From: a virus
IMG/VR virus record: IMGVR_UViG_3300045920_000048
Span: 1 to 22,702 of that record
Length of the DNA stretch: 22,702 nucleotides
Direction: 5' to 3' (one strand)
The notes under the pieces are model-generated. The model saw nothing but the letters and a program-made list of their open reading frames with translations. It did not search any database and had not been told where the DNA came from. The translations under genes were made by a program, and so were the position numbers. Shown piece by piece: positions 3,729 through 18,615 of this stretch (position 1 is its first letter; the number at the start of each line of letters is the position of its first letter).

Positions 3729-5392
3729 GCGATGAGCTCTGCGACCTCCACGGCAATGTCGAACGAATCGCGGCCCGTTCTGGAAGCCGGCGATAAGTTC
3801 GAGCGGTGATAGCACGGGCAGTCGGCGTAAGCGTCCATAGTCCACGCGCTCGAGAGCTCGAGCACGTAGCCGCGGCCGACCGCATCGAACACGATGTCGA
3901 ACGCCATCCATTGCGTTTCGAGCTCGGCGGCGACGAGCTTGGCGAGCTCGAGCGCGGCGCGCGCACGCCCCGAGGAATCCCCGGCGATCCGCAGCGGCAC
4001 GTGCTGGCCCGATCCCGAGGCGAACGGGGTGCCGGGGCGGTTCTCGCGCACGAGCCCGTAGAGAAAATCCCCGACCACGCAAACGCGATAGTCGCGCGCG
4101 TTGCCCGCGATGAAGTCCTGCCAGTAGACATAGCCGCGCTGATGCCGGCCGTATACCGAGGGCACGCCGGCCCCCGAGAACACGCGGTCGACCTCGAGGC
4201 GCGCCTGCTCGGTGTTGTTCACGAGGCGCACGCACTTGCTCGCCGAGCCCTCGAGCGCCTTCGATACGAACGGGTAGCGCATCACCGTGAGAGCTCGCAA
4301 CGCCTCGGCCCGCGAGGTTGCGTAGATCGTCGGCGGGAGCCACGGCCCGAGCGGCCGAAGCTGCGCGACTTTATCGTCATACCAGCGGGCCTCCTCGAGC
4401 CGCGGGAGCGTGCGGTGCCCGAGTTGCGCGAGCTCCTCGACGAGCGCCTTCGATCGCTCGCGCTCGCCGCCCTGCTGATCGAGGCGCACGAACGCGAGGC
4501 CCGGCGAGGTCGGGCGGCCACGCGTGAACAGCGCGACATTGTGCCCGCGCTTCTGAGCGGCGACCGCGAATTGCCGGCCCCATCCTTTGCGATCGTCATA
4601 AGCGTGGAGCCGCGCCGGCCGTTCTCGTCGCGGCCGGAGCGGGCGGCCGTCCCACGAATCGCGTACCCAAGCCCAGGGCACGTCGCGCGACCACGGCTTC
4701 ACCGTGCCGGGATAGAAAACCATGCGCGCGCCTCGAGGCGGCCCGACTTGCAACGACGGGTACTGGCGCACGAGCCGCGGCGAATAGTGGAACACTCCGT
4801 CCGCCTCGGCCCACGTCGGCACCGCTCGAGCCCCGAGGAGGAGCGACAGCACCGCCTGATCCGAGCCAATGAATCGCTTGCGCGCTTCGCCCGCGATGTT
4901 CTCGGGAGCCTCCATGAACCGAGCGTAGATATCGGGCCGCGCGCCGGCTTTGAGCATCACGAGGCCGCCGTTGTAATGCGCGCGCGCGCACGTGCCGCGG
5001 TAGAGCTTGAGCGGGGCCGAGTCCGGCCGAATCCGGAAAAGATCGTCGACCGAGCCGTGGAACGTGACGTCGACGTCCATGCTCACGAGCCAGTCGGCGC
5101 CGTAGCGTTGTGCCGCGTCGGGCCGGAAAAGATCGAGCCGGCGAAGGCATTGCGGCGCGCCTGTCGATTCACGCCAATGGCGCACGGCCACGTTCGGAAA
5201 GTCGGCCGGCAGCGGAATCACCGCGATCGAAGGGTCGAGGCCGCCCGGAATGTTCGTGACGCACGCGAGCTCGACGTCGGGAAGCGTGCAGTGCTCGCGG
5301 AAGCGGCGCGCCCACGTGTTGACCTTTTCGGCGTCGAATCCGTGACGGTCCGGTTCCTGCCGCCATAGCCAAACCATCGCGCGCGTTTTCAT
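3725..5392 (-). CDS. GT8-like glycosyltransferase fused to an ATP-grasp domain
   Basis: ATG at 5392 overlaps the preceding stop as ATGA and gives 555 residues. Residues about 1-240 look like a GT8-type glycosyltransferase: a nucleotide-binding start (MKTRAMVWLWR), a metal-binding DVD at 106-108 in WLVSMDVDVTF, an acceptor-side NGG at 141-143, GSDQAVLSLLL from 176, and FYPGTVKPW at 226-234, which resembles the HxxGxxKPW end motif. Residues about 260-555 look like a pre-ATP-grasp plus ATP-grasp ligase: Lys in PFVSKALEGS, then VYWQDFIAGNARDYRV, and MAFDIVFDAVGRGYVLELSS, with acidic residues near 499 and 512 as metal ligands. The fold of part two is RimK/carboxylate-amine ligase-like. I know no named family with this order. 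A gene of this kind between structural genes suggests modification of a virion component, but substrate and acceptor are unknown. Confidence 0.72.
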   Translation of the reverse strand: MKTRAMVWLWRQEPDRHGFDAEKVNTWARRFREHCTLPDVELACVTNIPGGLDPSIAVIPLPADFPNVAVRHWRESTGAPQCLRRLDLFRPDAAQRYGADWLVSMDVDVTFHGSVDDLFRIRPDSAPLKLYRGTCARAHYNGGLVMLKAGARPDIYARFMEAPENIAGEARKRFIGSDQAVLSLLLGARAVPTWAEADGVFHYSPRLVRQYPSLQVGPPRGARMVFYPGTVKPWSRDVPWAWVRDSWDGRPLRPRRERPARLHAYDDRKGWGRQFAVAAQKRGHNVALFTRGRPTSPGLAFVRLDQQGGERERSKALVEELAQLGHRTLPRLEEARWYDDKVAQLRPLGPWLPPTIYATSRAEALRALTVMRYPFVSKALEGSASKCVRLVNNTEQARLEVDRVFSGAGVPSVYGRHQRGYVYWQDFIAGNARDYRVCVVGDFLYGLVRENRPGTPFASGSGQHVPLRIAGDSSGRARAALELAKLVAAELETQWMAFDIVFDAVGRGYVLELSSAWTMDAYADCPCYHRSNLSPASRTGRDSFDIAVEVAELIA

Positions 5393-6108
5393 AGGTGCTC
5401 GATCCACTCGTCGTCATCGCGAATTATGCGCCGAGACCGTTCCGCCTCGAGCTCGTCGCGTGCGTGCTGCGCGTTTACCGCTGCGACGATCCGCTGCAGC
5501 ATGGGCAGCCCGGCCTCGATCGTCGGGCGGCCGAATCCATTGCGCGACGTGAAGCCTTGCGTGCTGATCGTGTGGAAGGGGATCGGCTGCGCCTTGGGCT
5601 CGTGCCGGCGCTTCATGATGCGTCGGAGCCAGCCACCGCCCGAGACCGGCGGCGCCGGGCCTGGCCCCGGTCCCGGCCCAGGGCCGCCCGTGATCGTCGG
5701 CACGCCGAAAAAGTCCGGATCTGCGAAGCCTATGGGCGCAATGGTCGCGTTCAAGGCGACCGTGCCGAACGCGCTCACATTCGCAAAAGCCTCGGGCCCG
5801 ATCGTCGCGTTCAGCGATACCGTGCCGAAGGCGCTGGCGTTGGCGAAGCCGGCCGGCGCTATCGTCGCATTGAGAGCCGGAGTGCCGAACGCGCTTACAT
5901 TCGCAAAACCGGCGGGCGCGATGTTGGCGTTGAGAGCCACAGTGCCGAACGCCGAGACATTGGCGAAGCCGTTCGGAAATATCTCGCCGCTCGCTGCCTC
6001 GAGCGGGACGATCCACGCTGGATCTTTGGCGGTGAGTGTCGGCGCCCACCATTTGCGCCAGCCGTCAGGGTTGCCCGGCCCGCCCGCGCGCTGAATGCCC
6101 GCGCGCAT
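5389..6108 (-). CDS. Putative virion protein with 20-residue tandem repeats and Pro-Gly linker
   Basis: The gene begins at ATG 6108, six bases after the previous gene, and encodes 239 residues. Residues 47-140 contain four full and one partial copy of a 20-residue unit close to GFANVSAFGTVALNATIAPA. Similar G-x-A-x-x-x-x-F-G-T-x-x-L repeats occur in phage and bacterial surface or virion proteins and are expected to form short beta-strand pairs. Residues 143-154 are an alternating Gly-Pro linker, followed by a basic patch (RRIMKRRHEPK) and a helical charged C-terminus (RDELEAERSRRI). There is no signal peptide. The first 46 residues are Trp-rich (GWRKWWAP, AWIVP). Neighbours are virion-like genes, so a structural role such as an appendage or a linker protein is likely, but the function is not known. 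Confidence 0.6.
   Translation of the reverse strand: MRAGIQRAGGPGNPDGWRKWWAPTLTAKDPAWIVPLEAASGEIFPNGFANVSAFGTVALNANIAPAGFANVSAFGTPALNATIAPAGFANASAFGTVSLNATIGPEAFANVSAFGTVALNATIAPIGFADPDFFGVPTITGGPGPGPGPGPAPPVSGGGWLRRIMKRRHEPKAQPIPFHTISTQGFTSRNGFGRPTIEAGLPMLQRIVAAVNAQHARDELEAERSRRIIRDDDEWIEHL
5689..5970 (-). repeat. 60-bp in-frame tandem repeat, four full and one partial unit
   Basis: Starting from residue 47 of the encoded protein, the DNA repeats with an exact 60-base period (units ending near 5910, 5850, 5790, 5730 and a partial unit to 5689). Each unit contains the plus-strand word GTGCCGAA followed by a variable part and a TCGCAAA or TGGCGAA word. Units differ mostly at third codon positions and at a few residues (Val/Pro/Ser at position 11, Asn/Thr, Ala/Gly), so they are diverged copies and not a recent expansion. 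The period is a multiple of three and the frame is kept throughout. Confidence 0.85.
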
Positions 6109-7233: not shown

Positions 7234-7622
7234 AGAGCGAAAATCCGATTCGCGCCGTTATCCCAAACGACCGGGCACACTTGCGACGCCTCGGGAGTGA
7301 ACGGCAAGCCCACGGCACTATCCACGTAGGCGAGCAAGCGCGCGGTCGCGTCGCTGCCCGTGTGCTGGAAAATGATCAGCGCGTTGCACGCGCTTCCGGC
7401 CGTGGCCGTGATCGTCGTGTCGGCTGCGTCGAACACGCCATCGGGGAACGCTTTCGAGCCGAGCGCCGCCGATCGTCCGTTGTCCACGGCCCCGAGGTCG
7501 GCGATAAACGTGTCGGTCGGGTCGAACGTGTACGTGCTCAACACGAGCATCGCCCGAATGTCATCGGTCAGAATGTTCGGGAAGGCGTAGAGCTCTTTCG
7601 CGTTCGGAAAAATCGCGCTCAT
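7230..7622 (-). CDS. Small putative virion protein, 130 residues
   Basis: ATG at 7622 overlaps the portal stop as ATGA. The 130-residue product follows a pattern common to a family of small phage proteins: an opening PNAKELYAFPNILTDDIRA, a strand ML VLSTYTFDPTDTFIADLG, a middle GSKAFPDGVFDAADTTIT, and an end with LIIFQHTG, LLAYVDSAVGLPFTP and WDNGANRIFAL. Proteins with this ending are, as far as I know, predicted beta-sandwich virion components, with no enzymatic role. Translational coupling to portal suggests that it is made together with the portal. The exact position in the virion cannot be told from sequence. Confidence 0.6.
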   Translation of the reverse strand: MSAIFPNAKELYAFPNILTDDIRAMLVLSTYTFDPTDTFIADLGAVDNGRSAALGSKAFPDGVFDAADTTITATAGSACNALIIFQHTGSDATARLLAYVDSAVGLPFTPEASQVCPVVWDNGANRIFAL

Positions 7623-9727
7623 TCGTCGCTTTCCTCCTCGATCACGTGGTCGATAAAGCCGGCGGCGTTGCGCACCGCCGTTTTCTTAATTCTGCGGGGC
7701 CGATCGCGCTCGCGGATCAGCGGCACGATAGTTTCGCGCACGGCCTCCGAGACGCTCGTCGCGACTGTAGTGGCGAGCTCGCGCAACGTGTTCGTGCGTC
7801 GCTCCTCGGCCTGGCGCTGCGCGTTCACACTGTATTCGATGATGTGCTCGGCGAAGTTGTCGTCGAGCTCCTCGAAAATCTCGGGGCCGAGTTCGATGCC
7901 GCCGCGGTACGGCTCAAGCTCCTCGACGTTGAGCTCGCCCACGTCGTAGGTGAGCGTCACGTGCGGCTGATAGGTCGCGTAATCCCACGAGGCCCCCGCG
8001 CGCTTTATGTCCTCGTGGCGCCACGCAAGCGACGAGCTCGCAAAGTGAAGCACCACGGCACCGTTCGGCCCGAGCGCCTCGACTACTCGGGGGCCGCCCG
8101 GAGCCACGGACATTTCGCCAGCGGCGTCCGAGTCGAACGCCTGGCCCGCCTTGATCCAATCGACCGGGCTGCGGCTGTAGGCGATCGTGACGTGCATCGC
8201 TTCGCCGAGCGTGCTCTTGAGCCCTTGCTCTTTCGCCCAACGCTCGAGCGCGCGCCAGTTTTTCACTTGCCGGCGGACGTACAGCGGCCGCGGCGTCGCG
8301 TTCACGATCGGGCTGGCCGGGGCCCCATCGCCGTTCGTGGCGGGAGGATCGCCCCGCCGGGCCTGCCGATGTTGGTCGAATTGAACGACGACCTGATCGT
8401 CCTCCTCGGGGAGCGGCGCCGATCCGGGCGGCCCGTCGACCACGTCGAGTTGTTCGGGCATGAACTCGGATTCCTCGTCCTCGCCGAGCCAGCGCCGGAA
8501 CTCCTCGGTCGGGATCACGAGCGAAGCGCCTGGCGAATTGGCGTAGGCCGCGACCGCCTCGGCTTTAGTCTTTGCGATCGTCGCGCGCTTTTCCTCGCCG
8601 AGCGCGTCGGACTCCGACCAAATGACCTCGAACTCGCCGCCCGGCGGTTCCGCGAGCACGCCGAGCTCGATCATGCGCGAAACGAACGGGGTAATGATCA
8701 TCGGCCCGGCGAACACGGTGCGCCGTTCCGCCACGCGCGCGGCCCAATTGTTTTCGTCTTGCTCGCTCGAGAGCTCGCCACGCTCGGAGCCGACGAGGAT
8801 TCGCTTCGGGATGCCGGTCGCGCCCGCGATCATGTCCAATTGCTTGTCGATGTTTTGCGATGCGTCCGTGCCCTGAGTCGGCGCCGCGAGCATTTGCGGC
8901 TCAACGCCGCGCACGCGAACATCGCGCCGCAGCCCGTGTTGCGCCTCCTCGAGCTCGGCGGCCATCGCCGCTTTTTCGGGCTCGGTCCATTCGACGTCGG
9001 AGTCGGCCTTCCACGCGCGCATGCCGCCGGCATTCTGCCAGTAGATTTCGGCCGATCCGCCCAAGAGCTTGTCGAGGTCCATGAGCCGATTGAAAACGCG
9101 CTCGAGCCGCGGCACGCCGAGCGAGCGGTCGGACATCGCGCGCTCGGCAACATGCAGCGTTCGCGAGTGATGCACGTTGATCGACTTGACGCCGCCGCCC
9201 GATCCTGTCCACTCGACGCCGCTCGCCAAGAGATACGTTTCCGGCGTCCCGTAGCGCGGGTCGCGCGGTTCGCTGATCCACTTCGTAATCGAGGCCGAGA
9301 ACTCGCTGTGCGGCGTGAGGTACAAGAGCTTGTGCTTTCCGGTCACGGGTTGCGTCGTTGACTGACCGCCGTCGAGGCCGAACATCAAAACGCCGTAGTG
9401 CCCGATGCCCGTGAGCCGATCGAGCCGCGTGAGAACGCTCCACAATTGGAATTGTTCGGCGAATTTCTCGAACTCGAGCTGCCACGGCGTATCGGGCTGC
9501 GCATCCTTCGGCTTTACGACCGGCGCTTCGCGCCACGTCGCGTCGGGATACGCGTCGACGATCCGCGCGGCGATGTCGCCTCGAGAATAGACGTCGAAGA
9601 ACTCGCCGACCGAGAGCGCGCGAGGGTAGCCGAAAATCTCGTAGAGATCGCGGTTGCCGCCGAAGTGCTGGCCCGCGAGGAGCGAGAGCGCGTACCGGAA
9701 CGTGCGTCGCCAGAACGGTTGCGTCAT
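7619..9727 (-). CDS. Portal protein (DUF1073-like) with C-terminal Acb1-like 2H phosphoesterase domain
   Basis: ATG at 9727 follows a GAGG site; the gene encodes 702 residues, longer than a usual 450-550 residue portal. Residues 1-430 match the DUF1073-type portal: SRGDIAARIVDAYPDATWRE, LDRLTGIGHYGVLMFGL, NVHHSRTLHVAERA, LMDLDKLLGGSAEIYW, DMIAGATGIPKRILVGSERG and QDENNWAARV. After an acidic and Pro-rich linker (about 420-475), residues 478-620 form a separate domain with two HxT motifs, H512-V-T514 in MHVTIAYSRSP and H589-V-T591 in YQPHVTLTYD, plus VVLHFASSSLAWRHEDI. This is the 2H phosphoesterase layout and closely resembles the anti-CBASS nuclease Acb1, which cleaves cyclic oligonucleotide signals. 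A charged helical tail ends the protein. The portal part is firm; the anti-CBASS activity is inference from motifs. Confidence 0.85.
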   Translation of the reverse strand: MTQPFWRRTFRYALSLLAGQHFGGNRDLYEIFGYPRALSVGEFFDVYSRGDIAARIVDAYPDATWREAPVVKPKDAQPDTPWQLEFEKFAEQFQLWSVLTRLDRLTGIGHYGVLMFGLDGGQSTTQPVTGKHKLLYLTPHSEFSASITKWISEPRDPRYGTPETYLLASGVEWTGSGGGVKSINVHHSRTLHVAERAMSDRSLGVPRLERVFNRLMDLDKLLGGSAEIYWQNAGGMRAWKADSDVEWTEPEKAAMAAELEEAQHGLRRDVRVRGVEPQMLAAPTQGTDASQNIDKQLDMIAGATGIPKRILVGSERGELSSEQDENNWAARVAERRTVFAGPMIITPFVSRMIELGVLAEPPGGEFEVIWSESDALGEEKRATIAKTKAEAVAAYANSPGASLVIPTEEFRRWLGEDEESEFMPEQLDVVDGPPGSAPLPEEDDQVVVQFDQHRQARRGDPPATNGDGAPASPIVNATPRPLYVRRQVKNWRALERWAKEQGLKSTLGEAMHVTIAYSRSPVDWIKAGQAFDSDAAGEMSVAPGGPRVVEALGPNGAVVLHFASSSLAWRHEDIKRAGASWDYATYQPHVTLTYDVGELNVEELEPYRGGIELGPEIFEELDDNFAEHIIEYSVNAQRQAEERRTNTLRELATTVATSVSEAVRETIVPLIRERDRPRRIKKTAVRNAAGFIDHVIEEESDE

Positions 9728-11396: not shown

Positions 11397-11888
11397 TCAC
11401 TTGCCGCTCACGAGCTCGAGGTACGCGCGCGCGGCCTCCTCCTCGGTCGCATCCTCGGCAATCTCGAACGCGATCGGCTTGCCGCCTGGGCCGATGTGCT
11501 CGCGGCGCGCGGCCGCGGCTCGGAACTCCGGATGCCGGCGGTCGAGCATGTGGACCAGGCACTTGTCGGAAATGTGCAGCCGCTCCTCCTCGGTCACCGT
11601 GGTTTTCGTAATCGTGCCGTGCTCGTCGGTCTCGACGACCGTGCGCTTCGTTTTGACCGGCTCGCCGATCGTGGCGCGGCGGGCCTCGATCGCGGCCACT
11701 GTGTCATTGAACCGCGCCTCGGCATCCTCCCATTGTTCGGCGAACTCGGGGTCGTGCTTTCGCTTGTAGTAGAGCCACACACGGCTCACGCCGATCGACT
11801 CGGCGCACGCGGACACGTTGCCGTTCTTCCCGAGTTGCTCGAGGAACAAGCGGCGGCGCTTTTTCGTGAGGGCCTTTTCGCGCGGCAT
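11397..11888 (-). CDS. Probable terminase small subunit
   Basis: ATG at 11888 overlaps the stop of the ParB-methyltransferase gene as TAATG. The 163-residue product starts with a basic stretch (PREKALTKKRRRLFLEQL) and then a helix-turn-helix: GNVSACAESIGVSRVWLY, the arrangement seen in DNA-binding small terminases. The middle is a charged helix (FAEQWEDAEARFNDTVAA), followed by a Thr/Glu-rich beta part and a C-terminal region with ISDKCLVHMLDRRHPEFR, typical of small terminases that end in a DRRHP(E/D)xR-like motif. It would recognise the packaging site and load the large subunit encoded next. Family assignment comes from motif and position. Confidence 0.83.
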   Translation of the reverse strand: MPREKALTKKRRRLFLEQLGKNGNVSACAESIGVSRVWLYYKRKHDPEFAEQWEDAEARFNDTVAAIEARRATIGEPVKTKRTVVETDEHGTITKTTVTEEERLHISDKCLVHMLDRRHPEFRAAAARREHIGPGGKPIAFEIAEDATEEEAARAYLELVSGK

Positions 11889-13261
11889 TACGGCGTCGTG
11901 GTCTCAGGCTTCGGTGCGGGTTTCGGTTTGCGTGTACGCTTCGGGGCCGGCGTTGGCGCCTTCGCGGCCCGATCGCTCACGACCTCGCGATAGGTCGGGC
12001 CGTCCGGAGCGTTCAGCCGCGCTTCTATTTCGCGGACCTTCATCATGCGCCCAATGGTCACGTCGCACCACTTGGGCTCAATGTCCACGGCGATGCAGCG
12101 CCGGCCGAGTTGATCCGCGGCGACCATCGTTGAACCGCTCCCGCAGAACGGCTCGAGCACGACGTCGTCCGGCCCCGTGGAGTTCTCGATGAGCTCGCGC
12201 ATTAGCTTCACGGGCTTCGCGGCGTTGTGCTGGCGCTCGAGGCCGGCGGGCCGATCGTGGCGCAAGATGTTCGGCTTGTGAACGGGCCGCACGCCGACCG
12301 CGCGGTGCCCCATCGCGGTTTGCGGCGGGAGCTTCGCGAAGAATGCGACGAGCTCGTGCGTATTGGCGTAATTGCTCCCGAGCCCCGAGCCGCCCTTATC
12401 CCACACGAGCAAGTTGCGGAGCTCGACCGTCTCGACGCGCTTGCGCATCATGGCGAGCGTTGGGTAGCTGCGCCAGTCGCAGAAAATGTACGCGTGCCCG
12501 AACCACGGCAGATAGTCCCGCACGAGCCGAAGCACGCCCTCGAAAAACGGCTGCACCATCCGATCGTCGGCAATGTCAGATGCCATCCCGGTCGCGCTTC
12601 CATAGATCGCGTAGGGCGGATCGGTCGCGATGCATTGCACCGTGTAGTCGCCCACGAGCTCGCGCAGCGATTCGCCGTAGAACACGTCGAAGCATCCAAG
12701 GCGGTGCCGGCCGATGTGCCACACGTCGCCGGGCCTCGTGATCGGATCGACCGGGATCGTGCCGAACTCGTCCTCGCCCTCTTGCCCTGGGTCGGCTCCG
12801 GGCTCGGCCTTCGCTGCGCGGCGCCGGACGTCGCGTTGCTCCTCGAGCGTGAAGCCCGCGAGCTCGAGCGAGAAACCCGCCCCGAGGAGCTCGTCGAACT
12901 CGAGAGCCAGCGTCTTGTCGTCCCATCCGGCTTTTTCGGCTAGCCGATTGTCGGCGATCACGTAAGCCTTCGCCTGGATCTCGGTTAGGTGATCGAGGCG
13001 AATGCACGGCACGAACTCGAGGCCGAGCTTGCGCGCGGCGAGCACTCGAGCGTGTCCGGCAATGATGCCGGCGGCCTCGCCTTTCGGATCGGTGCGGATC
13101 AGCACGGGATTTGTCCAGCCGAACTCGCGGATGCTCGCGGCGATCGCGGCGACTTGCTCCTCGGAATGCGTGCGGCTGTTTCGTGCGTAGGGAATGAGCC
13201 GCTCGATCGCAACGCGTTCGATTTTCTCGGGAGTGATTGCGCCCTCGGGTTTCTTCGCCAT
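11888..13261 (-). CDS. ParB-domain DNA methyltransferase (N6-adenine or N4-cytosine, beta class)
   Basis: ATG at 13261 has GAGGAG three bases upstream; the product has 457 residues. Residues about 16-110 form a ParB/sulfiredoxin-like domain (IERLIPYARNSRTHSEEQ, FGWTNPVLIR, IIAGHARVLAARKLG, AYVIADNRLAEKAGW). The methyltransferase follows: ATDPPYAIYG with DPPY at 214-217, then HNAAKPVKLMRELI at 345-358, and EPFCGSGSTMVAA from 370 for SAM binding. Motif IV before motif I is the beta-class order, and DPPY favours adenine-N6 over cytosine-N4. The C-terminus is a Pro/Lys/Arg tail with AT-hook-like character. Such fusions are frequent in phages and mobile elements, often beside terminase genes. It probably protects phage DNA from restriction or marks it. 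Target sequence is unknown. Confidence 0.88.
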   Translation of the reverse strand: MAKKPEGAITPEKIERVAIERLIPYARNSRTHSEEQVAAIAASIREFGWTNPVLIRTDPKGEAAGIIAGHARVLAARKLGLEFVPCIRLDHLTEIQAKAYVIADNRLAEKAGWDDKTLALEFDELLGAGFSLELAGFTLEEQRDVRRRAAKAEPGADPGQEGEDEFGTIPVDPITRPGDVWHIGRHRLGCFDVFYGESLRELVGDYTVQCIATDPPYAIYGSATGMASDIADDRMVQPFFEGVLRLVRDYLPWFGHAYIFCDWRSYPTLAMMRKRVETVELRNLLVWDKGGSGLGSNYANTHELVAFFAKLPPQTAMGHRAVGVRPVHKPNILRHDRPAGLERQHNAAKPVKLMRELIENSTGPDDVVLEPFCGSGSTMVAADQLGRRCIAVDIEPKWCDVTIGRMMKVREIEARLNAPDGPTYREVVSDRAAKAPTPAPKRTRKPKPAPKPETTTP

Positions 13262-14821: not shown

Positions 14822-15292
14822 TTATGGTGATTTGGCGAGCACGAGGAGCCGCGGCCGGCCGTGGCCGCCGGCCGTCTCGCCGAGCTCGTGCCAGCCGGCT
14901 TTTCGGAAGCACCAGCCGGGCTTCCCGATTGCGCGCACGAGCGAGGGCGCCACGTATGTGTAGAGCGTGCGCGGCCCCCACCGTAGAAACGCGAAGGGCT
15001 CGGCGGCGAGGATCAGCGCCGATGCTTTGAGCGGGCCGTTCTCGCGGCGGAATACCGCGCAGTTGACGCCGCCCTCGGGCGCGAGCCGGCACATATCGCG
15101 GAAGCGTCGCCACACGAGGAGCGCGTCGACCGCTGGCGTGAGGAGCGCGACGTACTCGCCCGGCCCACTGATTTTCGGCGCGGTGCTGCCGCGGCTCGAG
15201 TAGTGGCGGTTGTAGATCGGCCGAAGCCTCGGGTCGCCATCGCGGACCGCGATCCACGGCGAATCGCCGAAGTCGAGCAACGGCTGCGTCAC
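14822..15292 (-). CDS. Mom-like / GNAT-type DNA-modification protein
   Basis: GTG at 15292 overlaps the ASCH gene stop as GTGA; the product has 156 residues. The order of motifs is that of Mom-related phage proteins: RLRPIYNRHYSSR at 22-34, GPGEYVALL at 43-51, a strand VDALLVWRRF, GVNCAVFRREN at 75-85, then the acetyltransferase-like end with LYTYVAPSLVR at 110-120 and GKPGWCFRKAGWHELGET at 123-140, finishing in LLVLAKSP. Mu Mom converts adenine to N6-carbamoylmethyladenine and protects from many restriction enzymes. Relatives with a GNAT core occur in other phages without proven chemistry. The gene is in the same polycistron as two or more DNA methyltransferases, which supports a DNA-protection role. 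Family assignment is from recalled motifs. Confidence 0.65.
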   Translation of the reverse strand: MTQPLLDFGDSPWIAVRDGDPRLRPIYNRHYSSRGSTAPKISGPGEYVALLTPAVDALLVWRRFRDMCRLAPEGGVNCAVFRRENGPLKASALILAAEPFAFLRWGPRTLYTYVAPSLVRAIGKPGWCFRKAGWHELGETAGGHGRPRLLVLAKSP

Positions 15293-15753
15293 GCTTTGAG
15301 CGCCGGTCCCGGTTCGATGTTCTCGAGCAACGACGCGAATGCGGCCGGGATCGCGGAGGTCGGCACCTCAAAGAAACGCTGCCGCCCGATGAACGGTATC
15401 GGCCGGTCGAGCTCCATGCCGAGCGCTCGGCGCCACGCGAAGCGGCCGTCCGAAAAGTCGCCGCATAGCATGTCGCTCTCTGTGAGCTTGACGCGCAGCG
15501 CGGCGTCGCACGGCACGCAAGCGTCGATGTATACGGCTCCGATGATAGCGCCGAGCGGGAACGGGCCGTTCTCGAGGCCGGCCTCGCGCAACGGTTCGGC
15601 GAGCCACGCCCGTTCCTCGACGGTCGGCGGCCGCTTCGCGGCGTGGACGAGGAGCCAGCCACGATGATGCGTCGGCCAGTGCCGCGTCTCGTGTTCCTTG
15701 TCGCCGACGACCCAAAGCGATGCCCACGGCTGCCACATGCTTATCGCTTTCAT
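15289..15753 (-). CDS. ASCH-domain (PUA-like) protein
   Basis: ATG at 15753 overlaps the previous stop as ATGA. The 154-residue protein opens with MKAISMWQPWASLWVVGDKE, then HETRHW at 21-26 and RGWLLVHAAK at 31-40, the classic start of an ASCH domain (KAISIRQPWA, K-x-x-E-x-R-x-W, G-x-x-x-I-x-A). Further on are PLGAIIGAVYIDACV and FAWRRALGMELDRPIPFIG, the second half of the fold. ASCH domains bind nucleic acid or nucleobases; E. coli YqfB with this fold hydrolyses N4-acetylcytidine. In phages it is commonly found next to modification genes. Here it is coupled to the Mom-like gene, so recognition or processing of modified bases is a fair guess. Confidence 0.82.
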   Translation of the reverse strand: MKAISMWQPWASLWVVGDKEHETRHWPTHHRGWLLVHAAKRPPTVEERAWLAEPLREAGLENGPFPLGAIIGAVYIDACVPCDAALRVKLTESDMLCGDFSDGRFAWRRALGMELDRPIPFIGRQRFFEVPTSAIPAAFASLLENIEPGPALKA

Positions 15754-16364
15754 AACCGGCTACACGTCGGGAGCGCGACGAGGTAGCCGCCATCCCGCAG
15801 AATTCGCTCGCAGCGGTGCGTTTCCTTGAGCAAGTCATCGAGCCACGCGAGACCGCCCTGGAATGCGAGCGCGGCCCTGAGCTCGGCGGCGTCCGTCTCA
15901 TAGTTGCCGGGCTCGAAAAGGCAAAGGTCGTCGACCACGATCACGTCGCCGGACAAGTCGCGATGCTCGCGGATCACCGAAACCTCGCCAGCGATCGGCA
16001 CGAGCATGGCCGGCGACTGCTCGGCCACGGTCATTGGCAGGGGATCGAGACGCCCGCTTCCAGGGAAGTGCGCGTCAAGAAACCAAAGCACGCGCCGATC
16101 GAGCGCGTCGAGCTCGACCGCGATTTCCTCGAGCAAGTCCGTCGAATCGCCCCAATAAAGCCGAACGCGCGGCTCGGTCGCGAACACGACGCGGTTGCGG
16201 TGATACGTCTCGTGGTCGATTTCGATCGACCGAATATCCACGAGCTCCGGCACTTGTAGCGCCGCGAGCAAGCTGTGGCCGTGGCCCGTGCCGGTTTCCA
16301 CGAGCGCGTTGAGCTCGTGAGCTCGCACGAGGCCCGGCAATCCGAGCCGGGAAAGCGTTCCCAT
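15750..16364 (-). CDS. Class I SAM methyltransferase-like protein
   Basis: ATG at 16364 overlaps the stop of the DPPY methyltransferase as TAATG; an open frame continues upstream but has no conserved content. The 204-residue product has a Rossmann methyltransferase layout: ALVETGTGHGHSLL at 20-33 (motif I), an acidic strand end RSIEID at 45-50, VRLYWGDSTDLL from 67 (motif III-like), RVLWFLDAHFPG at 91-102, and DVIVVDDLCLF at 130-140. The pair DAH and VDD could bind a metal, as in small-molecule O-methyltransferases of the TylF type. There is no NPPY-type DNA methyltransferase motif, so DNA is an unlikely direct substrate. Target may be a sugar, a base precursor or a protein. Confidence 0.6.
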   Translation of the reverse strand: MGTLSRLGLPGLVRAHELNALVETGTGHGHSLLAALQVPELVDIRSIEIDHETYHRNRVVFATEPRVRLYWGDSTDLLEEIAVELDALDRRVLWFLDAHFPGSGRLDPLPMTVAEQSPAMLVPIAGEVSVIREHRDLSGDVIVVDDLCLFEPGNYETDAAELRAALAFQGGLAWLDDLLKETHRCERILRDGGYLVALPTCSRL

Positions 16365-17050
16365 TAGTGCGCCCTCCAATCGAAAAGCCGCCCCTGTGCG
16401 TGCGCGGCTTCGATCCGCTCGCACGCTTGCTTGTACCAGCACCACTCGCGCTCGATCCCGAGGAACGGAAGGCCGAGGCGCGCGCACGCTACGCCAGTCG
16501 TGCCCGTGCCCATGAACGGGTCGACGACGTGCCCCTCGGGGTGCATCGCAAGTTTCGCGAGGAGCCAATCCATAACCTCGACCGGCTTCTGGTACGGGTG
16601 CCCGGTCGCGACTGTATCGCGATTCAGGCGCGGCGTGCTCGCCTCGAGCAAGTCCGTGCCGCCGAAAAGTTGGAAGCCCTCGGCCGATAGCACGACGATC
16701 GGCTCAACGGACCACGCGACGCGCCCCGCGACTTGTGGCTTCGGGTCGCGCTTGCGCATGTAGAGAAACCGGCATTTTCGGTACCCGGCCTCGGTCGCCG
16801 CCGCGAGGAGCTCGGGCATATTGGCCGGCGCGTAGAACGTGAGCACCGGGGCCGGCGCGACTTCGCGGAGCCAATCGACGCTGCAAGCATCCCACGGTTC
16901 GCGCACGAGAGCCGCGGCCGGGTTGCTTCCCAGGCCCGATTCCGGTCGACGCCATCCGCCGGTTCCGTAGGGCGGATCGGTCACGACGACGTCCTTTGCG
17001 CGATGCACGAGCGTGCCGAGCATCCCGCGGGAGTCGCAGCAGAAAAGCAT
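16364..17050 (-). CDS. DNA methyltransferase, beta class, probably adenine-N6
   Basis: ATG at 17050 is preferred because family members begin shortly before a phrase like FCCDSRGMLGTL; ATG at 17077 in the same frame is the alternative. The product has 228 residues. VVVTDPPYGTGG has DPPY at 25-28 (motif IV). ATGHPYQKPVEVMDWL at 148-163 and VVDPFMGTGTTGVACA at 175-190 (motif I) follow. Motif IV before motif I is the beta order; DPPY favours N6-adenine. The target-recognition part between them is short, so the enzyme is compact. It follows the C5-methyltransferase by 13 bases and no restriction enzyme is encoded nearby, so it is an orphan protective methylase. Target sequence cannot be predicted. 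Confidence 0.87.
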   Translation of the reverse strand: MLFCCDSRGMLGTLVHRAKDVVVTDPPYGTGGWRRPESGLGSNPAAALVREPWDACSVDWLREVAPAPVLTFYAPANMPELLAAATEAGYRKCRFLYMRKRDPKPQVAGRVAWSVEPIVVLSAEGFQLFGGTDLLEASTPRLNRDTVATGHPYQKPVEVMDWLLAKLAMHPEGHVVDPFMGTGTTGVACARLGLPFLGIEREWCWYKQACERIEAAHAQGRLFDWRAH

Positions 17051-17063
17051 CGCCCGGCCGATC

Positions 17064-18362
17064 CTACGCGAGAACATGGTCGAGCTTGCGGCCGATCCAC
17101 GCGAGCACGGGCACGGCCATCGAATTGCCGAGCGCCGCGTAGCGCAGCGTGTCCGCGGCCGGCGCGATCGCTCGCCGCCGTTTCGGGCGGTACGGGATCT
17201 CGGTGAAGTCATCGGGGAATCCCTGCAAGCGTTCACACTCGCGCGGTGTGAGCCTCCGAACCGCGACGTCGGAGACCATCGCCCTCGAGGCGCCGCCATC
17301 GGCGGACCGCAACGCCGGGCTCACCGTTGAGAGCTCGAGCGCGAGGCCCTCACGGTCGCGCATGGCGAGAGCGACGGCGGGCGGCTTCGCGCTCGAGGCA
17401 AGGGCGGCCGTCTCGGGATCGCACGCGGAGCGGTTCTCGGGGTGCGTCAATTGCGTTTCATCGAAGCACGCGACCACGTTGCGCAGCCGGAAGTTGTTGC
17501 CCTCGTGCGTGTAGTTCCGCGCGTTCATCGCCGTCAACGGCTCGGCGATCTCCTCGACGATCACGTGGTTGCCGGTCGCCTCCTCGGCGCCCGTTCGCGG
17601 GCCGGCTCCGTGCGAGTTCGAGAGCAACGGCCCCGCGACGAGGAGCCCTTCGCGGCCGTCGCCGCCACACGGGCTGCTACCGTCGAGAGCGCGCGCTGTA
17701 AGTGTTCCGGAAGCACGCGCCCCCGGCGCTCGGCGCGGCGGATGATCCCCGCGCACGCTTTCGCGCTCAAGTAGTACCGGGGCGCGATCGTGCCAGCGTC
17801 CAGAATCGACGAGAGCGAACAAGCGTTCGCGCCGCTGCGCCACGCCGAACCATTGCGCGTCCAGCACGCCCCACTCGAGGAGGCCGATCTTGCCGAGCGC
17901 CAGCCCTTCAGTGTCCCATCCGTCTCGGGGCGGCTCGAGGTCGGCCCCTGCCAGCGTAGAAACCACTTGAGCAAAATCTCGGCCGCCGCGGTTCGTGAGC
18001 GCCCCCGGCACGTTCTCCCAAAGAGCGAATCGGGCGCCGCAAAAGCGTCGTGCTGCATTGAAAAGCCTCGCGTAGTGGAAGAACAACGCCGAGCGCGTGC
18101 CCTTGAGGCCGGCGCGCTTACCCGCAACGGATAGATCCTGACACGGCGTGCCCCCGACCACGAGGTCGAGCGGCCCGAGCTCGGCGATCGCCGTGCTCGT
18201 CAATTTCGTGATGTCGCCCAAGTTCGGCACGTGCGGCCAATGATGCGCGAGCACGGCCGAGCAATAGCGGTCGTTCTCGGCGAAGGCGGCCGGCTGCCAT
18301 CCGAGCGGCGCCCAGGCGATCGTCGCGGCCTCGATTCCGCTGCAAAGGCTAAGGTAACGCAT
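17064..18362 (-). CDS. DNA (cytosine-5) methyltransferase
   Basis: ATG at 18362 gives 432 residues beginning MRYLSLCSGIEAATIAW (motif I) and overlaps the preceding stop by 14 bases. All main motifs are present: GGTPCQDLSVAGKRAG with the catalytic Cys74, WENVPGALTN with the ENV around 116, QRRERLFALVD from 176 (motif VIII), RRLTPRECERLQGFPDDF near 370 (motif IX) and LRYAALGNSMAVPV near 408 (motif X). A long target-recognition region, about 200-360, contains SGTLTARALDG and EEIAEPLTAMNAR repeats of the kind common in phage enzymes of this family. It makes 5-methylcytosine. No cognate restriction endonuclease is present, so it likely defends phage DNA against host restriction. Confidence 0.94.
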   Translation of the reverse strand: MRYLSLCSGIEAATIAWAPLGWQPAAFAENDRYCSAVLAHHWPHVPNLGDITKLTSTAIAELGPLDLVVGGTPCQDLSVAGKRAGLKGTRSALFFHYARLFNAARRFCGARFALWENVPGALTNRGGRDFAQVVSTLAGADLEPPRDGWDTEGLALGKIGLLEWGVLDAQWFGVAQRRERLFALVDSGRWHDRAPVLLERESVRGDHPPRRAPGARASGTLTARALDGSSPCGGDGREGLLVAGPLLSNSHGAGPRTGAEEATGNHVIVEEIAEPLTAMNARNYTHEGNNFRLRNVVACFDETQLTHPENRSACDPETAALASSAKPPAVALAMRDREGLALELSTVSPALRSADGGASRAMVSDVAVRRLTPRECERLQGFPDDFTEIPYRPKRRRAIAPAADTLRYAALGNSMAVPVLAWIGRKLDHVLA

Positions 18363-18615
18363 CACTCGCCGCCGCGACGATTGCCGCCAGTCGTTCGAGC
18401 GCATGGAATTCGGTCATTTGATGCCAGCGCCGATCCTCGAGAATCGCGACAGCCTCGCATGGTGAGAGCCCGCCGCGTTCCCGTAGCCTGGCGAGGCTTT
18501 GCATGTGATTCCGCTGCGCCTGTTTCTCGTGGCCGGCGATGATTCGCCACGGTAGCGGAGCCAATTTCACCGTGCGGAATTGGCTCACGATCGGCATGGG
18601 CGCCTCGTCACGCAT
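18349..18615 (-). CDS. Conserved small phage protein, 88 residues, unknown function
   Basis: ATG at 18615 overlaps the winged-helix-like gene by 8 bases; the end overlaps the C5-methyltransferase start by 14. The sequence has a conserved-looking core LAPLPWRIIAGHEKQAQRN followed by LARLRERGGLSPCEAVAILE and DRRWHQM. Small proteins with the pattern H-x-x-QAQRNH and RGGLSxxEAVAxLExR are, to my memory, frequent in phage early regions and lack a known function. It is helical, soluble and without a signal peptide. The tight overlap suggests that it is made at a ratio coupled to the methyltransferase. Confidence 0.65.
   Translation of the reverse strand: MRDEAPMPIVSQFRTVKLAPLPWRIIAGHEKQAQRNHMQSLARLRERGGLSPCEAVAILEDRRWHQMTEFHALERLAAIVAAASDALP

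Follow-up and report, generated by a model that had tools for sequence, protein, structure and literature searches.

The window, i.e. the whole stretch of DNA analysed, is an IMG/VR virus record of 22,702 nt. It carries on its minus strand a small open reading frame, termed here the target, which is listed in Table 1 together with its neighbors. Downstream of the target, the same strand encodes the portal protein and the large and small terminases; a Holliday-junction resolvase gene is upstream. The first 4 nt of the target overlap the end of an ASCH-like gene, including its stop codon, and from this overlap the two genes are probably translationally coupled. The start of the N6/N4 DNA methyltransferase is probably internal, since the open reading frame overlaps the next gene. 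A second amino-methyltransferase, fused to a ParB-N domain, lies upstream of the small terminase gene both here and in L006, the contig that has the closest relative of the target.

A sequence-only reading of this region had placed the target in a DNA-methylation context with two DNA methyltransferases. The context is borne out by the same-strand methyltransferases in the window and by their enrichment across the family (see below), but the number was an undercount: there are three DNA methyltransferases on the same strand (C5, DPPY and the ParB fusion), in addition to a weak SAM-methyltransferase-like open reading frame.

Table 1. Positions of the target gene, its conserved codons and neighboring genes in the window. 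Residue counts are from a 196-sequence family alignment; secondary structure is from the AlphaFold model.
Feature	Positions	Strand	Remarks
Target gene, Mom-like GNAT (phrog_24928)	14822..15292	-	156 aa; GTG start at 15292, stop ending at 14822; AlphaFold model
H30-Y31-S32 codons, HYS motif between alpha1 and beta2	15197..15205	-	H and Y 194/194, S 187/194 (aligned letters)
F81-R82-R83-E84 codons (family FRNE), end of beta4	15041..15052	-	F 196/196, R82 194/196, E84 195/196
S91 codon, N-terminus of alpha3	15020..15022	-	Ser 195/196; opposite S124 of Mu Mom (P0002 S114) in the alignment
C128-F129 codons, PGxCF motif, start of alpha4	14906..14911	-	C 193/196; F 176/196, Y 19/196; F129 aligned with Mom Y149 (P0002)
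ASCH-like gene	15289..15753	-	phrog_3193, E 4e-27; Pfam ASCH just E 0.075, under the cut-off; 4-nt overlaps with target and with SAM-methyltransferase-like ORF
SAM-methyltransferase-like ORF, weak; start probably internal	15750..16568	-	Pfam Methyltransf_24, E 0.027, under the cut-off
N6/N4 DNA methyltransferase, DPPY; start probably internal	16364..17299	-	PF01555 3.5e-15; phrog_67
C5-cytosine DNA methyltransferase	17064..18404	-	PF00145 5.5e-39; phrog_116
ParB-N domain + N6/N4 DNA methyltransferase fusion	11888..13261	-	PF01555 1.1e-28, PF02195 2.3e-7; phrog_498; also in L006

All five amino acid motifs quoted by the sequence-only reading are present in the target translation. Searches of the target protein against Pfam gave no family at E ≤ 1, NCBIfam likewise gave no match, and a PF13302 search of the record found none. 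In PHROGs the sole match at E ≤ 0.1 is phrog_24928 (7.8e-16), a family that carries the label "unknown function", and a term-based literature search yielded no paper on it. Relatives are found in six phage records, which include Paenibacillus phage Lily, Salinibacter phages and Micromonospora pMLP1. An alignment query of IMG/VR showed 225 of 314 pattern-matching stretches to be relatives, and two additional scans identified 159 relatives among 171 stretches and 106 among 147 (the best 80 of each of the three sets were used); in genome contigs, 12 of 31 such stretches are relatives. The resulting set has 253 loci, with some contigs fetched twice, and reduces to 196 distinct domains and to 175 non-redundant loci at 85% identity. 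Comparison of the target with its relative in L006 (65% identity) gives a dN/dS of 0.29/0.71 over 153 codons. This value, together with the presence of relatives in phage, IMG/VR and genome records, confirms by sequence comparison that the target is a real gene and not a chance open reading frame. Near-invariant residues of the family (window numbering) are H30, Y31, F81, R82, E84, S91, G126, C128, A132 and G133.

The L006 locus has the gene order resolvase – GNAT – ParB-methyltransferase – small terminase. No counterpart of the C5 methyltransferase, the DPPY methyltransferase or the ASCH gene of the window is found in the 10.5 kb of this locus. Thus the target gene does not depend on these three neighbors.

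An AlphaFold model of the target protein, built with a 65-sequence alignment, has a pLDDT of 92.5 and a pTM of 0.88, and the order of its strands and helices is that of a GNAT. VIA alignment of the model gave Z ≥ 5 for 833 of 999 aligned chains, and the 50 matches listed are GNATs; acetyltransferases are also among the matches listed by Foldseek. On the model, the GNAT fold is certain, as the sequence-only reading had proposed. The structure comparison does not favor Mom over other GNATs, however. Mu Mom (8bv8) aligns to the model with Z = 11.8 (rmsd 3.7, 143 aligned residues), where it is tied with many others and is rank 31 of the listed matches; the top match has Z = 13.0. Mu Mom is absent from the 50 PDB matches that Foldseek lists.

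The slightly better scores of solved small-molecule and protein acetyltransferases (Z 13.0 vs 11.8) are in keeping with an ordinary GNAT that acts on a host protein or on a small molecule, with the methyltransferase neighbors reflecting a shared phage accessory-gene region. A phage GNAT of this kind, Rac of phiKMV, is described in a section of PMC7824862 as acting on RNA polymerase. From the features given below, such a function for the target appears quite unlikely.

The target protein does not match the Mom models PF25680 and phrog_1384 in the profile search that the sequence-only reading had proposed; Mu Mom itself, used as the positive control, matches both (2e-75 and 7e-84). With hhalign, the target family and ten diverse Mom sequences give a co-linear alignment with a score of 23.7 over 108 columns (108–116 columns across runs). 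Reversed Mom gives 23.9 over 17 columns, the highest of 30 column shuffles is 18.3, and two ordinary GNAT sets give 21.4 and 17.6. The two GNAT sets (53 and 52 sequences) are largely the same proteins and are therefore counted as one control. With a 95-sequence Mom alignment the score is 21.1, in this case over 52 columns, compared with 23.0 for the reversed alignment and 21.3 for the best of the shuffles. Membership of the target in the Mom family is not supported by these sequence comparisons.

In individual motifs the family is like Mom and unlike ordinary GNATs. The motif HY[STN] is present in 194 of 196 family domains and 90 of 95 Mom sequences, but in none of 53 control GNATs. The canonical acyl-CoA loop, [QRK]xxGx[GA] (also given as [QR]xxGx[GA]), shows the opposite distribution, i.e. 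3/196 in the family, 0/95 in Mom and 38/53 in the controls, the control pattern being slightly looser. Its presence in just three of the 196 domains argues against an ordinary GNAT. The title of PDB entry 8bv8 names the "inactive mutant S124A" of Mu Mom; this site is S114 in the phage-record translation P0002, and in the profile alignment it is opposite S91 of the target, a position that is nearly always Ser in the family (Table 1). Of the 38 control GNATs in which the loop could be read, only 2 carry Ser at the corresponding position. Thus the earlier statement that the target resembles Mu Mom and its relatives stands with respect to the HYS motif, the serine at the S124 site and the lost CoA loop; it does not stand as an assignment to the Mom family, with neither model matched and an hhalign score no better than the reversed null.

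Two residues that are invariant in ten Mom sequences, D139 and Y149 (P0002), are A115 and F129 in the target protein. Column 115 of the family has N in 77 and D in 71 of the 196 domains, and column 129 is predominantly Phe. The target is also shorter, 156 aa compared with 231 aa for Mom, and an approximate 70-residue C-terminal extension of Mom is unaligned, a region where several of the Mom sequences compared were incomplete. Because of the loss of D139/Y149 and of the C-terminal part, the chemistry of the target family may differ from that of Mom, as judged from these alignments.

A family member and a canonical Mom are found together in L049. The family member is at positions 4950–5420 and the Mom gene at 7348–8136 (PF25680, 2.9e-56), about 1.9 kb downstream on the same strand; L050 shows the same arrangement. 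Thus one phage can carry both.

The family shows an association with DNA methyltransferases. Among 65 loci (the non-redundant ones of the first 80), a DNA methyltransferase is present within 300 bp in 14, compared with 2 of 52 Mom loci and 1 of 40 SSB control loci. Within 2 kb the numbers are 25/65, 4/52 and 4/40 (Fisher p = 1e-4 against Mom and 0.0015 against SSB), and within 5 kb the difference is not significant (31/65 vs 14/40 for SSB, p = 0.23); the iterated methyltransferase models were applied alike to the family, SSB and Mom loci, and their seeds came from the family loci, which favors the family. A methyltransferase is present within 2.5 kb in 51 of the 175 loci of the larger set (C5 22, N6/N4 27, D12 5, plus fusion loci); L462, classed here as an adjacent gene and not as a fusion, is included in this count. 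The remaining 124 loci show no methyltransferase within 2.5 kb by the models used, as might be expected if the target were an ordinary GNAT; the higher methyltransferase frequencies within 300 bp and within 2 kb argue against this.

Other genes also recur near the family. Genes for DUF5131/Gp88-like proteins lie no more than 2.5 kb from the family gene in L034 (4077–4940), L183 (5216–5980) and others, with 6/175 loci for the L034 cluster; the Pfam name is from L183. PP-loop (PAPS-reductase/SspD-like) genes are found upstream in 5/175 loci, e.g. L049 (3863–4720) and L056 (3933–4790; PADLOC 5e-15 for L056).

In three contigs (L010, L017 and L323) the whole family domain lies within a helicase-N6/N4 methyltransferase, inserted at a single point in the C-terminal lobe. 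In L323, for example, the phrog_24928 match (1.9e-21) is within the phrog_16 helicase and methyltransferase matches. The unfused helicase-methyltransferases of L376 and L331 continue through the insertion point without a GNAT domain. L314 and L315 repeat two of the three contigs and are left out of the count. The fusion proteins are 49%–69% identical to one another, thus the fusion has been long maintained and, from this sequence divergence, probably originated in a single event. Retention of the insertion across about 50% divergence is further evidence against an ordinary GNAT. In 13 of the 175 loci an unfused helicase-methyltransferase gene is present within 2.5 kb, so that the fused and the adjacent forms agree.

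A fourth candidate fusion, L462 725–2494 (GNAT to a TSPPY methyltransferase), was rejected. The last part of its GNAT domain is not in frame, which indicates an adjacent gene rather than a fusion, probably two genes with a frameshift. The helicase-methyltransferase part of L017 (3987–7925) has an in-frame insert of ~325 aa with intein-like ends, which is absent from L010.

The Mom-type active-site features, together with the insertion into a helicase-methyltransferase in some viruses, suggest that the family probably decorates viral DNA, in a so far undescribed manner. It is likely that the target works like Mom. The proposed function, which is considered probable, is that of a Mom-like GNAT that would attach a small substituent of the acyl or amide type to a base of the phage genome, at an exocyclic amino group, and so aid escape from restriction. 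By analogy with Mom, H30 and Y31 would line the acceptor site and S91 would be catalytic. The GNAT-fold transferase would move the small group in the fashion of Mom, and the modification would act alongside the phage DNA methyltransferases so that the DNA escapes restriction. The layered protection from restriction and the modification of adenine or another base, as put forward by the sequence-only reading, are likewise inferences.

The base that would be modified may be considered from the linked methyltransferases. Motif IV of 30 neighboring or helicase-linked amino-methyltransferases is SPPY in 8, SIPF in 6, SPPF in 4, TIPF in 1, DPPY in 6 and DIPY in 1, and 4 have none. S-type motifs (SPPY/SPPF/SIPF) thus make up 18 of the 30. 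S-type motif IV is often found in N4-cytosine methyltransferases, and TmcA is a helicase-GNAT that synthesizes N4-acetylcytidine in tRNA. The target may then be a DNA counterpart of TmcA that acylates cytosine N4 and not adenine N6, the fused or neighboring amino-methyltransferase marking or priming the same amino group. The preponderance of S-type motifs makes this a live rival, and the three contigs with a GNAT domain inserted in a helicase agree with it. However, motif IV is a poor predictor of N4 versus N6 specificity and the window's own two amino-methyltransferases are DPPY. Cytosine N4 acylation is on balance somewhat unlikely.

The ASCH neighbor was considered as an eraser of such a mark. 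ASCH amidohydrolases of the YqfB type, which act on N4-acylcytosine, have the motif Lys-x-x-Thr-x-Arg with Thr as the nucleophile. The window protein reads K19-E-H-E22-T-R24 (by hand): Lys and Arg are kept, and Glu is at the position of the Thr nucleophile. A YqfB-like role was therefore rejected, which also speaks against the cytosine N4 reading.

The same neighbor might indicate that the acceptor is RNA or free nucleotides and not DNA, as nucleic-acid-modifying GNATs are known; in addition, according to a portion of PMC12707154, proteins of the ASCH/PUA type often have functions connected with RNA or nucleotides. Only a minority of the loci have an ASCH gene nearby, however (13 open reading frames among 253 loci, repeats included), and the conserved partners of the family act on DNA. 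An RNA or nucleotide acceptor thus appears highly improbable.

A bolder proposal, considered unlikely, is that the family consists of phage DNA-modifying enzymes separate from Mom. Its fullest form would be a helicase, an inserted acyl/amide transferase and an amino-methyltransferase, i.e. a motor that moves along DNA and installs a bulky modification of an undescribed kind on a base, with cytosine N4 as a possible site. Few modifications other than methylation are known in phage DNA, and with each of them came new enzyme chemistry and a new means of evading restriction. If the proposed function of a Mom-like DNA modifier is correct, a widespread family labelled as of unknown function writes such a DNA mark, and the helicase-methyltransferase insertions are a direct clue to its substrate. 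Mom acts on adenine N6, as stated in part of PMC7824862; the proposed function, if correct, would raise the question of whether chemistry of the Mom type is limited to this base.

GNATs have been proposed to modify the bases of DNA, either in phages or as part of defence systems, as a GNAT-ABC ATPase and as GNAT/TGT (in the portions of PMC7824862 and PMC12839542 concerned). These resemble the present family in the link of a GNAT to DNA base modification. Their partners as described there are different (ABC ATPase; TGT/BREX-like), and these accounts include neither the target family nor a GNAT inside a helicase-methyltransferase. Phage helicase-methyltransferases (phrog_16/phrog_67) are a frequent neighbor of the family and form the same polypeptide with it in the three fusion contigs, whereas unfused ones, e.g. 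in L376, are without a GNAT domain. Mu Mom (PF25680, phrog_1384; 8bv8) and the target have in common the GNAT fold, the HYS motif, the serine at the start of alpha3 (S124), the absence of a canonical CoA loop, a co-linear order of strands and helices, and a phage-encoded origin. The target differs from Mu Mom in having no HMM match, in the replacement of the invariant Asp and Tyr, and in missing ~70 C-terminal residues of Mom. Unlike the Mom loci compared, the target family is strongly linked to DNA methyltransferases (25/65 vs 4/52).
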